From the NCBI GenBank assembly GCA_003557485.1, contig PWOI01000092.1, positions 1 to 6,594 of the forward strand: a DNA stretch of 6,594 nucleotides, in the 5' to 3' direction. Position numbers and translations under genes: made by a program. Source of the stretch: Elusimicrobiota bacterium (GTDB taxonomy: Bacteria; CG03; SLGR01; PWQF01). A model generated the notes under the pieces. It worked only from the letters and a program-made list of their open reading frames with translations. It had not been told where the DNA came from and searched no databases. Shown here one piece after another: positions 1-6,594 of the stretch (positions are counted from its first letter, which is position 1; every line of letters begins with the position of its first letter).

Positions 1-394
1 AGGTAAGGGTGCTGAATACATCCTCAAGCTTATAAGCTCCTCCGCTCCCTGAAGTTATTTTAACCCCGGCAGCAGTGCTGTGGTAATGGCCCGGGTTCCA
101 TATGTCATAGGGAAAGAAACTTACCTCCCGGTTAAGGTGAGTGAAAGTAAAAGGCTCCTGACCCAGGTCCCGGGCATAGAAATTTTTAACATCCTCTGCC
201 GGATCCTTTGTAAGCAAAATCCGTCCTTCAATCTCTCCGGCCATAATTCCCCCGAAAACTTTCGGGGCATCTTCAAAGGCGCCGGGATAATCAGGGATAG
301 AGGTATTGCCTGTATATTCATTACCCGTCTGCCCCGGTAGGATCTTCACCTGAGCAAGTCCGAAAACTATAATAAGTATCAATAATTTTTTCAT
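1..394 (-). CDS. Small secreted protein of unknown function (5' part, runs off window)
   Basis: This reading frame opens at ATG 394-392 and stays open for 131 codons to the left edge, so the C-terminus is missing. The start is fixed by a GGAGGT Shine-Dalgarno site at 399-404 and a promoter about 30 nt upstream. The N-terminus (MKKLLILIIVFGLAQ) is a short signal peptide, so the product is probably exported. A segment at residues 33-39 (IPDYPGA) is followed at 61-77 by a pattern with LLTKDPAEDVKNFYARDL. Together they resemble small secreted proteins of unknown function that pair a 'YPGA' motif with a helix of the type 'T.DSPEKVVAFYK..L'. That resemblance is from memory and is not a named family assignment. 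The rest is soluble, with aromatic residues around 93-105 (FFPYDIWNPGHYH). The gene is divergent from the adhesin operon and has its own promoter, so a functional link is unproven. An 86-codon frame on the opposite strand (80-340) is its shadow. Confidence 0.8.
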   Translation of the reverse strand, partial: MKKLLILIIVFGLAQVKILPGQTGNEYTGNTSIPDYPGAFEDAPKVFGGIMAGEIEGRILLTKDPAEDVKNFYARDLGQEPFTFTHLNREVSFFPYDIWNPGHYHSTAAGVKITSGSGGAYKLEDVFSTLT

Positions 395-3700: not shown

Positions 3701-5063
3701 CATCTCCGGCAGCCTATCGTACGGTTCCGGTTCCGGAAAAATAATTGTTAACGAAGACGGACTGGATGGAGAAGAGGCTCTTGAAGCGTCCGCTGTAGTG
3801 GTTCCCGTTATAAGAGCTTTTCCCCACCAGGAAGGGTTTGAGCACGGAGGGGATATCCCCCCCGGATGGAGGCTTTACGGAAGTTTATATATAAGTGATA
3901 CGGGGACACATAACAGGACGGGGGACTACTCTGTTGCCGTCGGGGCCGGCGATAATACTGCCCACGAGATGGAATCTGTTCTGTTTGATTATAGCGGATT
4001 AACTGCAGAAGATATCTCTTTCTGGTACAGGGGAACTTCCACGGCTGCGGGAAGCACAATAACCGTGGTAGCATCTACTGACGGGGGGGAAACTTATACG
4101 GTTCCTGTCCTGGACACGGTCTCAATAACAGCAGATTCCGGTTTTTATGAGCTAAGCGCCGACCGGGACCTAAGCCCGCTGCAGGATGAAAGCTCAGTCA
4201 AATTTAAGTGGACTATTTTCCGTACAGGTGGAATTATTAGCTTGGATGACATAACTTTTTCCGCTGCGGATATCGCCCCGGCAGCCGTAAGCAACCTGGA
4301 AGCAGAAGCTCTTTTGGATGGCGGCATTGAACTTACCTGGACCTCACCCCAGGATATAACGGGCGGGGAGTACAGGATCAGGTGGTCAACTGATTCGGCG
4401 GTTGACTGGGAAAGCGACTGGGCGGAAACCGAGGGGTTATGGGAAGATGAAGATAACAGGTTCAGTCTCACGTTTGCAACAGACACCCTTGAGGGAGGAG
4501 CCCATTCCTACAGTGTAGAAAACCTTGACGGGGGAGTTGAATATTTCTTCAGGATGTGGATTAAGGATGATGCAGGAAACTGGTCTGATATTTCTAATCC
4601 TTCAAACGCTACGGTGGTTCAGATAACGGAGGTGAATGTTGTTACCGAAACTCATTATTTCGGACAGCTTGACCTGGAGCAGTCAACTATGACTGTTGAA
4701 GCAATAAAGGTAATTAATACAGGTAATGTCCCCCTTAATTACAGCATAAAGGCATCTACAATTACGGAGGAAACCCCCTGGGTTTTCGGATCGGAGCCGG
4801 GGTGGGACAGGTTTGTTCTGATGGCAGCTTTTCACGACAGCAAACCCACAGAAGAAGAGTTCGCTGTAAATGATAATATAGTTGGCTCCGACTATATTGC
4901 CTGCAGCGGGACCGTTTATACCATTGACAATACCCAGGCCGGGGTAAGTATCCCCAAGGGCGGAGAGCTGGATTTGTGGATATATTTCATAATGCCCCGG
5001 CAGACCACAACTCCTCAACTGCAGGAAATGATGATAACAATAGGAGCTCAGAAAGATGAATAA
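714..5063 (+). CDS. Giant modular surface adhesin-like protein (GLUG beta-helix, FnIII, jelly-roll domains)
   Basis: This is a 1449-residue secreted protein, probably a surface adhesin or glycan-binding fibre component. Residues 1-30 are a signal peptide with cleavage likely after PVFA. The domains in order are:
- 31-382, GLUG-type beta-helix with repeats at about 98, 132, 164, 195, 226, 262 and 295, closing with the family-typical WDFDTVW (360-366) and NGGYPVF (375-381);
- 388-478, 483-580, 582-668 and 669-770, four FnIII domains in an A-B-A'-B' order;
- 779-922, CBM4-like jelly roll (NLILNEFFDFW start);
- 935-1033, Ig-like domain;
- 1034-1187, choice-of-anchor-J/cleaved-adhesin-like jelly roll (FEHGGDIPPGW at 1042-1052, ISLDDITF at 1175-1182);
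- 1188-1302, FnIII;
- 1304-1449, a domain related to the small protein starting at 6030.
No catalytic motif was recognised. An in-frame TGA at 708-710 excludes any earlier start. The Shine-Dalgarno site is weak or absent, and the stop overlaps the next gene. Domain names come from motif recognition, not a profile search. Confidence 0.88.
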   Translation: MKRFLKTAGYIKTAAITSFLLFLAYTPVFAEPIGISDSSQLENISNDLSGDYILTQDIDCSAHGKFTPIGDAANPFLGSLEGGGYEIQNLDLDDPDYAGLFGVIGSTGLVENLTINGVTLDRGSEGVAEAGGGLAGLNLGKIDTVKVIIKSDDFIEAGSSAYSGGLVGRNEGEIYDSIVVLNGQVRSALSTDRIGGFIGHLNGGPVRRCAVIGSGSVVLTSNEYVGGFAAHVGTGLGNDELSDIYVNVHVDASGADDQSRVGGLIGSFNTSKTVGMMYMAGLISLGGEVVYHSTGALIGYSQYTNPDGSGMYWDYESTTVDISDTDEKLTEAKSFSTSEMTYSYDAWDPPGDSAGPYYNWDFDTVWAHDESGEINGGYPVFIRQVETIPPTDFTGTATSTTTIHWSWQHSSTDTIDGFEVRSSTGGIYLSSATLTADTTDYFQSGLTANTSSHYYKIYAVSEAGYSADFSSAPVYPVYTEARVPENLDTAQVYISSATLTWDINDNPPGTRFGISYSTDSNFKVNVSTPVDINDNLTANTTDVKDLTSDTTYYFRAWAYNGNEIMTAFSNTAGTTTLKLGIPPPAPEDFTGIVLSSTSLKWQWELSAGATAYYIYDGSDTLLQTVYEPAQEWTESGLEPNIKYSRWIKAGNEYGVSESSSTDSAYTYAAPPHSLVFDEVNFSSVTVSWSTSTANPAGTRFGISYSTDSTFSAAVTTPTDFNSDLTAGTTDIFNLTHNTTYYFKAYAFNDEGSWPGTDQYSATASTRTRKDPTLISTPGNLILNEFFDFWTEDNADYWTWDGAAGRLQKSPGEPLAGDYNISLTPVGSHDTLINNIGSEFESGKTYRAEIWVKGTSGVRVRAGIRWSGSNQYGPYAELENDRWTKVTHNRQRDVEGTDDGLIISVLESVEGARPEVTVGAAWLGENDPPLSWPAGILYLSPVEVYENESFDRVFTLTLANEQFSESLDAAHLSLSEDFAGLSIDSLNRVNSTTATVSISGSLSYGSGSGKIIVNEDGLDGEEALEASAVVVPVIRAFPHQEGFEHGGDIPPGWRLYGSLYISDTGTHNRTGDYSVAVGAGDNTAHEMESVLFDYSGLTAEDISFWYRGTSTAAGSTITVVASTDGGETYTVPVLDTVSITADSGFYELSADRDLSPLQDESSVKFKWTIFRTGGIISLDDITFSAADIAPAAVSNLEAEALLDGGIELTWTSPQDITGGEYRIRWSTDSAVDWESDWAETEGLWEDEDNRFSLTFATDTLEGGAHSYSVENLDGGVEYFFRMWIKDDAGNWSDISNPSNATVVQITEVNVVTETHYFGQLDLEQSTMTVEAIKVINTGNVPLNYSIKASTITEETPWVFGSEPGWDRFVLMAAFHDSKPTEEEFAVNDNIVGSDYIACSGTVYTIDNTQAGVSIPKGGELDLWIYFIMPRQTTTPQLQEMMITIGAQKDE
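1005..1643 (+). repeat. GLUG-type protein repeats within the adhesin
   Basis: These are seven degenerate peptide repeats built around the pattern GG-(L/F)-x-G. They begin near residues 98 (AGLFG), 132 (GGLAG), 164 (GGLVG), 195 (GGFIG), 226 (GGFAA), 262 (GGLIG) and 295 (GALIG). Spacing is 31-36 residues. The first has AG and the seventh GA in place of GG, and the fourth ends in AA instead of x-G. Such repeats are known to form right-handed parallel beta-helices in bacterial adhesins. The repetition is at protein level; no exact DNA repeat is present. Confidence 0.8.
1875..3020 (+). repeat. Tandem duplication of a two-domain FnIII unit (A-B-A'-B')
   Basis: FnIII domains 1 and 3 resemble each other. 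They share a DFTG start, alternating Trp (WSW and WQW) and an S-G-L turn before the Tyr-rich strands. Domains 2 and 4 resemble each other more closely. The peptide GTRFGISYSTDS is identical at residues 509-520 and 697-708, 188 residues apart, and both carry a later TTYYF motif. The unit of about 188 residues (roughly 564 bp) therefore appears to have been duplicated in tandem. Confidence 0.7.
5042..5063 (+). promoter_or_regulatory. Ribosome-binding site and translational-coupling overlap
   Basis: AGGAG at 5042-5046 lies 9 nt before ATG 5056 and sits inside the end of the adhesin gene. The second gene's start and the adhesin's TAA stop overlap by 8 bp (ATGAATAA). Ribosomes finishing the adhesin could therefore reinitiate on the second gene. 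This supports one operon and coordinated production of the two proteins. Confidence 0.7.
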
Positions 5064-5937
5064 GGTAAAGTTTTTTGCATATGCGCTGATATTGTTTTTA
5101 GTCAGCGGATTGCTTATGGCAAGTGTAAGCATAGGGACCAGGTACGGAACAATAGTACTTGAAGAAGTTTCACCAGGCAGGGTATATAATATAACCGAGA
5201 TGAGAGATTTGCCGTATACGGTAATAAACAGGGGATCCACAAAAGGCAATGTTAACATAACGGTCTTTCCGCCCCGTGAACCCCGGGAAGATTATGAACC
5301 CATAGCCGACCCCAACTGGCTTACGGTAAGGCCCTCGGAGTTTGAACTTGAAGCGGGAGAAAGCATGCCCACAAGCCTCATACTTAATATCCCTGATGAT
5401 GAGAAGTATAAGGGGAGGCATTTCCATGCCCTTATAAGAGTCCAGAGCGGCCGGGGCGGGGGTGTCGGAGCAGCAGTAGTAAACAATTTCTTTTTTTCTG
5501 TTGGTTCTCCCGGCCCCGAGGCTGTCAGAGAAGCCAGGGCCCGTGAGGTTCTTTCGGATTTGAACTATGATGTTAACCCCGAATCCCTTTTTATTGAAGT
5601 CCCGGCCGGAGAAGAATTTGATATTCTCCAGGAGCTGGACAGAAGTCTGCAGATAATAAACAGGGGGAGGCAGGATGTGAAACTTGTTATAAACAGTATT
5701 GAAAACAGACCGGGATATTCTGCTGCCGACGGATATTCATTTACTTCTTCGCCCGAGTACCTGTGGGCGGAGCCCGGGACGATGGCAATAGAAAGCTACC
5801 AGGTAAGGGACGTTAATCTGTTTGCAAAGATACCAGAGGAGTATAAAGGAGAGAAGCTGATGTTTCTTGTCGGGGTCCATCCGGAGGGGATGGATTTTGC
5901 GAACCTTTATTCAAGAGTTTTTGTAAGTGTAAAATAG
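5056..5937 (+). CDS. Exported protein with two tandem Ig-like domains, possible assembly chaperone or anchor
   Basis: This is a 293-residue protein. A hydrophobic signal peptide (residues about 4-22, cleavage likely near LLMA-S) places it in the periplasm or outside the cell. The mature part is two related beta-sandwich domains, about 26-148 and 150-293. Both carry INRG (57-60 and 201-204) followed by a Val/Ile-rich strand. Both end with an IP-acidic-YKG motif before the last strands (112-120 and 259-265). The pattern 'WLTVRPSEFELEAGES...LNIPDDEKYKGRHF' is typical of exported Ig-like domains of the COG1470/DUF916-like kind. Unlike DUF916 proteins of Gram-positives, it has no C-terminal membrane anchor. 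Two Ig domains in a small exported protein next to a subunit gene recall periplasmic pilus chaperones. I cannot see the signature Arg/Lys of PapD-type chaperones, so that role is inferred from context. Translation is probably coupled to the upstream adhesin. Confidence 0.8.
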   Translation: MNKVKFFAYALILFLVSGLLMASVSIGTRYGTIVLEEVSPGRVYNITEMRDLPYTVINRGSTKGNVNITVFPPREPREDYEPIADPNWLTVRPSEFELEAGESMPTSLILNIPDDEKYKGRHFHALIRVQSGRGGGVGAAVVNNFFFSVGSPGPEAVREARAREVLSDLNYDVNPESLFIEVPAGEEFDILQELDRSLQIINRGRQDVKLVINSIENRPGYSAADGYSFTSSPEYLWAEPGTMAIESYQVRDVNLFAKIPEEYKGEKLMFLVGVHPEGMDFANLYSRVFVSVK

Positions 5938-5954
5938 GAAGGAGGTGCTTATAG

Positions 5955-5971
5955 CAAAACAAGGTGTTTTG
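5955..5971 (+). other. Small hairpin between the second and third genes
   Basis: CAAAACA and TGTTTTG form a perfect 7-bp stem around a three-base AGG loop. It is AT-rich and weak, and no T-tract follows, so it is not an intrinsic terminator. It could mark an RNA-processing site or protect the 5' end of the downstream message, but this is speculative. Confidence 0.4.
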
Positions 5972-6015
5972 GTAGGGAAAGGAAGGAAAAATAATGAAAG
6001 AGAAGGAAAGTGTAA

Positions 6016-6023
6016 AAGGAGGT
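6016..6023 (+). promoter_or_regulatory. Perfect Shine-Dalgarno site that decides the start of the third gene
   Basis: AAGGAGGT lies 7 nt before ATG 6030, counted from the end of GGAGG. It favours that start over the in-frame ATG at 5994, which has only a loose GGAAGGA upstream and would put twelve charged residues before the signal peptide. It is the strongest translation signal in the operon. Confidence 0.8.
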
Positions 6024-6029
6024 AAGAGA

Positions 6030-6594
6030 ATGAAGTTGTTAAAGGGACTATTGGTTTTTGTGTTGACGGTAGGGGTTATGGCGGTTGTTTCTGCCAAGGC
6101 TGAGGAGGAGGCTTCAGACGAAATAACTATTTCAATGAATCCGCCGTCAGAGTACGGGGTTACTATTTCTCCGGATTCTTATGATTTCGGAGATGTCGCT
6201 CTTGATTCTACGTACTTGTCCACAGATACGATAATTACGGTTACAAATTCCGGTGAAGTAGTATCGGACTGGAAAATAAAGGGTGATGATTCAGAGTCTA
6301 ACTGGAATTTGGCAGGGTTTATAGATCCGGATGTTACTCCAGCTGAGGATACTGTTCATCTTATGGCCATACTGAGTGATGAGGTAACGGATGAGGATGA
6401 TATAGTAGCTTATGAGCACTGGGTTGAGAATGATTCTATTGAACATGGTGTATCACATAACATGGTAAAGGAAGAAAACTGGGAAACTGAAGGCCGCTAT
6501 ACTTATGACGGTGTGGCAACAGGTGACAATGTCGGAGCTGGAGAAGTACGCAGAATATGGTTTAGATTAGACACTCCAGATAGTACAACTGTTA
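6030..6594 (+). CDS. Small acidic secreted protein, putative surface-structure subunit (3' end missing)
   Basis: The first 188 codons are present and the frame is open at the window edge. Residues 1-24 are a clean signal peptide with AKA before a run of Glu. The mature part contains 39 Asp/Glu and only 7 Lys/Arg in 164 residues, so it is very acidic. Residues 42-75 (SYDFGD, then ITVTNSG) resemble Ig-like 'choice-of-anchor D' or ASH-type openings. From residue 53 on, it aligns by eye with the C-terminal domain of the giant adhesin: FG 53-54, ST 60-61, V.N.G 71-75, IK 83-84, W92, LMA 111-113, W177, P183 and TT 186-187, all in the same order. By analogy with the adhesin's domain, which has about 18 residues beyond the equivalent of V188, only a short tail is probably missing unless extra domains follow. 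The likely role is a secreted structural subunit or coat protein. Direct evidence is limited to the signal peptide, the perfect ribosome-binding site and the shared domain. Confidence 0.82.
   Translation, partial: MKLLKGLLVFVLTVGVMAVVSAKAEEEASDEITISMNPPSEYGVTISPDSYDFGDVALDSTYLSTDTIITVTNSGEVVSDWKIKGDDSESNWNLAGFIDPDVTPAEDTVHLMAILSDEVTDEDDIVAYEHWVENDSIEHGVSHNMVKEENWETEGRYTYDGVATGDNVGAGEVRRIWFRLDTPDSTTV

Follow-up and report, generated by a model that had tools for sequence, protein, structure and literature searches.

The window analysed here encodes a large secreted adhesin and, two genes downstream, a small secreted protein with a similar series of residues. This raises the question of whether both carry the same domain and, if so, what that domain does. 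A sequence-only reading of this locus had proposed that they share a domain and that such sharing would fit a surface fibre docking a tip protein. The window is an entire 6594-base contig (C128) of a 2.07 Mb draft genome, whose phylum is represented by 16 genomes in the collection examined. We call the shared domain X, and the family of the protein encoded in between (P0002) C (Table 1). X is a previously unnamed domain. Because it is mostly found together with a pilus-chaperone-like protein and a type IX-anchored partner, it is probably the plug-and-socket element by which these uncultured bacteria assemble adhesins on their surface.

Table 1. Features of the window (positions from its first base)
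Feature	Position	Strand	Description
Divergent secreted protein	2..394	-	Cut by the contig; matches neither Pfam nor NCBIfam
Large secreted adhesin, 1449 aa	714..5063	+	Signal peptide, GLUG-like repeats, several fn3, CBM_4_9-like, C-terminal X
X domain of adhesin, aa 1304-1449	4623..5060	+	Extreme C-terminus; lacks an N-terminal extension strand
C protein P0002, 293 aa	5056..5937	+	Signal peptide, then a tandem pair of PapD/WxLIP-like Ig domains (predicted)
Last strand of P0002 domain 1, aa 140-149	5473..5502	+	Family-typical GVSISFALASRLRFSTG; candidate G1-like donor strand (putative role)
Small X protein P0003, 200 aa visible	5994..6594	+	Secreted; gene cut by contig end
Mature N-terminal strand of P0003	6117..6146	+	DEITISMNPP; candidate donor strand
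X domain of P0003, aa 53-200	6150..6593	+	Last strand missing at contig end

One domain in a large and a small protein

The landmarks of the sequence-only reading lie where it had placed them: F1316-G1317 in the adhesin and F65-G66 in P0003, S-T seven residues on, V-x-N-x-G, W1356 and W104, and L-M-A. The distance from F to Trp is 40 residues in the adhesin and 39 in P0003, and a Pro stands six residues past the second Trp. Only the description of the first Trp as lone needs amending, because P0003 has both W93 and W104. That the adhesin C-terminus and P0003 are one domain is borne out by HHalign, the comparison proposed earlier. Profiles built separately from 31 large-protein C-termini and 23 small proteins aligned with a score of 205 (probability 99.92, E=6e-35), against at most 14 in 30 column-shuffled controls. 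Pairwise BLASTP of adhesin residues 1304-1449 with P0003 gave E=1e-6. An HMM of the large-protein domains from other loci, excluding the window and its orthologues, found both P0003 (E=7e-24) and the C-terminal part of the adhesin (5e-36). In the opposite direction, an HMM of small proteins that likewise left out the window's sequences found the adhesin at 6e-27.

In total, 57 X domains of about 145 aa were collected. The G of F-G, the N, both Trp and the Pro are invariant or nearly so across the family, and since these columns coincide with the landmarks, the latter are the family's real conserved residues. X makes up nearly the whole of each small protein (complete orthologues of P0003 are 192-193 aa long) and, in 31 of the 32 large proteins, no more than four residues separate it from the C-terminus. 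In the lone exception (L077/L125), X is followed by a type IX sorting tail.

No Pfam or NCBIfam family fits X, in agreement with the sequence-only reading, which knew of no named family. X members matched neither pilin families, nor the camelysin/TasA Pfam models, nor type IX sorting-domain models. A few weakly matched HYDIN-like Ig and choice-of-anchor D models (choice_anch_D in five members, best 9e-5), and a sequence search against solved structures returned HYDIN at E about 1e-3, a generic Ig match. The structure model of X is of low confidence (pLDDT 60, pTM 0.60), so that no missing-strand groove could be made out in it. Foldseek and VIA matched this model mainly to viral coat proteins of jelly-roll fold (E >= 5e-3, Z <= 7.2); we distrust these matches because the model is weak, and rejected the assignment.

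A PapD/WxLIP-like protein linked to X

The sequence-only reading missed the chaperone-like character of the P0002 gene, which overlaps the adhesin gene by 8 bp at the adhesin stop. An AlphaFold2 model of P0002 (pLDDT 87) has two tandem Ig-like domains. The best PDB match of domain 1 is WxLIP 9i1y of Enterococcus faecium (Z 12.0, rmsd 3.3, 119 aligned residues, 16% identity). The pilus chaperones Caf1M (Z 11.7), YadV (11.4), FimC (11.2) and CsuC (11.0) also match, as do further ones at Z 10-12. HYDIN-type domains are likewise near, so the function of P0002 is not fixed by its fold alone. The final strand of domain 1 looks, by eye, similar to the alternating G1 strand of PapD chaperones. At the sequence level, C has a weak profile link to WxLIP (HHalign probability 68%, E=5e-5), and two C members match PF06030 at 9e-4; within the phylum, all PF06030 matches are below the cut-off. 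None of 20 C members matches the PapD_N Pfam model at E up to 1, the PROSITE PS00635 pattern is absent from C, and P0002 lacks a C-terminal transmembrane helix.

The two Ig domains of P0002 (window 5125-5934) share PG..Y, GYE..P and IP..Y.G motifs and look like a tandem duplication of each other. C relatives are of two kinds: two-domain proteins of about 300 aa, and one-domain proteins of about 165 aa with a basic amphipathic tail that may bind membranes (e.g. KGFFKRIFGWILK; L009:167-667, L038:6561-7055 and L039:6245-6736). These three one-domain genes adjoin large X genes, and no partner of the small X kind was seen in their vicinity.

X occurs in 26, C in 37 and both in 22 of 386 genomes (Fisher p=3e-22), and outside the phylum the counts are 16 for X, 27 for C and 13 for both (p=3e-14); the genomes are not independent, so these p-values overstate the evidence, and weak C matches may include other PapD-like proteins. 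The X-C pattern recurs in unrelated families. Within the window's own genome, a second contig (C165) also carries a large X, a small X and a C gene, and a third (C19) a large X and C pair. Two gene orders recur: (i) large X, C, small X; and (ii) large X, one-domain C, small X, two-domain C, base (see below), PorV-like. Small and large proteins with a common domain, together with a two-Ig-domain partner, are present in the window and at loci L008, L042, L043, L048 and L049. A separate scan of named genomes with the two-domain C alignment found relatives mostly in genomes labelled Elusimicrobia, with others under the labels Sumerlaeota, Caldiserica, Clostridia and Endomicrobia.

Donor-like strands and a type IX-anchored partner

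In the alignment, a short alternating strand separates the signal peptide of small X proteins from the domain; large X domains directly follow fn3 or other cargo and have no such strand. The share with an alternating-hydrophobic pattern is 68% among small-X leaders, 12.5% among stretches preceding large X domains and 25% among random segments. A neighbouring secreted protein of the same operon, here called the base, opens its mature chain with the same strand as the small X protein: EEIYCTVII / EDIYCTVII in L083, DVYLYVTPT / DVYLYVRPT in L049, DSASFVIRV / DSASFVIGV in L047 and ATDTITITI / ATESITITI in L097. The mean 9-mer score between the small-X strand and its same-operon neighbour is 27.5, compared with 16.1 for other operons' neighbours (p=3e-7), 13.8 for large-X N-termini (p=2e-9) and 13.7 for internal segments (p=9e-10). 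In this test the neighbour at each locus was set by its position; the outcome agrees with that of a version using whichever of several neighbours scored best. At L048, L050 and L090, the two strands are barely alike.

In the window's two orthologous loci, the base ends in a type IX sorting domain (TIGR04183, 31.3 bits in L042 and 25.2 in L043; cut-off 23), and the gene after it in L042 is of the PorV/PorQ family (145 bits; cut-off 90). In the orthologues, the base stands just beyond the point at which the window's contig stops; the window's own base gene falls outside the contig and did not turn up, and the sequence-only reading lacked this partner. Outside the exception given above, X proteins have no type IX sorting tail. 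The window's genome, which lies outside Bacteroidota, encodes a 1729-aa homologue of the type IX translocon protein SprA/Sov (L124:1992-7181, G000:C42; E=5e-59, 199.6 bits, cut-off 200). The usher family PF00577 was found in none of the 16 genomes of the phylum; the E. coli control was positive.

A model of usher-less adhesin assembly

With moderate confidence, we read the locus as an usher-less, type IX-anchored adhesin assembly in which P0002 chaperones X and N-terminal strands plug into X. The X proteins would enter the periplasm by their signal peptides and, as we infer, cross the outer membrane from there. X would be an Ig-like docking domain, and P0002 a periplasmic chaperone, a strand of whose PapD-like domain completes and protects X until a subunit's N-terminal strand displaces it. 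The large protein would form the outermost piece, with cargo and a C-terminal X and no donor strand, presenting adhesive cargo of the fn3/CBM kind or, in the single case of L037, a peptidoglycan amidase. The small protein, with both a donor strand and X, would be an adaptor or shaft subunit; its strand may plug into the X of the large protein, and it could build a long shaft or a single link. The base, with a like donor strand, fn3 domains, a type IX sorting tail and the gene of a PorV-like barrel beside it, would insert its N-terminal strand into the X of the small protein, and the type IX system would keep the base at the surface. Points that count against this reading are the faint strand likeness at L048, L050 and L090, the lack of both an usher and a type IX tail to take X proteins through the outer membrane, and a second domain in P0002 that is unlike PapD domain 2.

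The tip docking proposed earlier fits this model well and has independent support in the strandless C-terminal X of the large protein, the strand-bearing single-domain partner and the PapD-like gene between them; docking itself is what we infer.

Comparison with known systems

Chaperone-usher pili (FimC/FimH, Caf1M/Caf1 and CsuC/CsuE) share with this locus the PapD-like chaperone fold (predicted for P0002), a tip adhesin with a C-terminal subunit domain that lacks an N-terminal extension, and other subunits with an alternating N-terminal strand, seen here at the sequence level. By contrast, there is no usher in the 16 genomes and no PapD_N or PS00635 in C, P0002 domain 2 resembles its own domain 1 rather than PapD domain 2, and X matches none of the pilin families. 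In the TasA/TapA fibres of Bacillus subtilis, the donor strand at the N-terminus of the fibre subunit TasA likewise recurs in the partner TapA (PMC9674648), but X has no camelysin/TasA Pfam match and no TapA- or SipW-like gene was identified. Type IX adhesins of Bacteroidota with PorV/PorP shuttles resemble the base with its sorting tail beside a PorV-like gene, and in Flavobacterium johnsoniae dedicated shuttle proteins occur beside their cargo (PMC12618676); here, however, the type IX protein seemingly anchors separately encoded X proteins, and does so outside Bacteroidota. WxL clusters of Gram-positive bacteria follow the same three-gene logic, with a domain found both by itself and at the C-terminal end of a large protein, and a third gene with two Ig-like domains. 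They differ in that X has neither a WxL family match nor profile similarity (PF13731, two WxL motifs), and in having the Gram-positive wall where this system has a type IX base and PorV.

WxLIP is proposed to stay bound to WxL proteins on the surface, and C might correspondingly be a permanent surface partner of X in a WxL-like platform, not a chaperone; we consider this unlikely. It would account for a gene set like that of WxL clusters (a small protein, a large one with the C-terminal domain and a two-Ig-domain protein; PMC10599100), for WxLIP being the top structural match of C, and for the profile link and PF06030 matches described above. Yet HHalign gives X and WxL a probability of 0.6%, PF13731 occurs in 0/16 genomes of the phylum, and Caf1M and FimC lie less than 1 Z from WxLIP. 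WxLIP consists of PGBD, HBD and a transmembrane helix; P0002 has the PGBD-like fold, as predicted, without the helix. An identification of X as a WxL domain is ruled out at the sequence level (PF13731 in just 2/386 genomes), and WxL proteins matched nothing in the PDB by sequence. As WxLIP may itself use strand insertion, the platform and chaperone readings overlap.

The closure of nearly all large proteins by X, the SprA homologue and the fact that sorting tails are likewise Ig-like C-terminal domains would also suit X as a new type IX C-terminal sorting signal, with the small X proteins as carriers or decoys. This is improbable, given that X matches no sorting-domain model, that base proteins of the same operons have their own sorting tail, that X is internal in L125 with a separate tail behind it, and that small X proteins carry no cargo and share a donor-like strand with the base. 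We give equally little credence to X and C being generic ASH/HYDIN-like Ig modules duplicated within the operon with no docking role: the choice_anch_D matches and the nearness of both to HYDIN-type domains point that way, but tight X-C co-occurrence, the fixed C-terminal place of X and operon-specific strand sharing demand a reason. The locus would work like a donor-strand adhesin system. By the features tested, it does not qualify as a chaperone-usher pilus, since an usher and a PapD family match are both lacking, or as a WxL cluster, since it has no WxL domain.

Tentatively, we extend the donor-strand reading to a new class of surface fibre with usher-less PapD/WxLIP-like chaperones, a new subunit family and a type IX base, which might span several uncultured lineages and bridge the WxL and chaperone-usher designs. 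A search of the openly available literature returned no paper on this gene combination, which does not prove that none exists. If the reading is right, strand-exchange adhesin assembly can proceed without an usher, and bacteria other than Bacteroidota can combine a PapD-like chaperone with anchoring at the surface by the type IX system. An unannotated domain that recurs in uncultured phyla, and its partner, would also gain a role that can be tested, and there would be a hint of how the Gram-positive WxL system and pilus chaperones may be related.

Other X loci

Three further loci extend the range of X proteins. The L125 protein (L125:1412-2608, G002:C42) combines X and a type IX/FlgD-like C-terminal tail in one chain, and its gene adjoins what appears by eye to be a glycoside hydrolase gene. 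At L047:1507-1896, a truncated small X gene stands beside two intact ones, which suggests a recent duplication. The large X protein of L037:1341-3026 (G014:C59) has an Amidase_3 peptidoglycan amidase (PF01520, E=2e-41) and fn3 as its cargo, so X may dock an enzyme besides adhesins.
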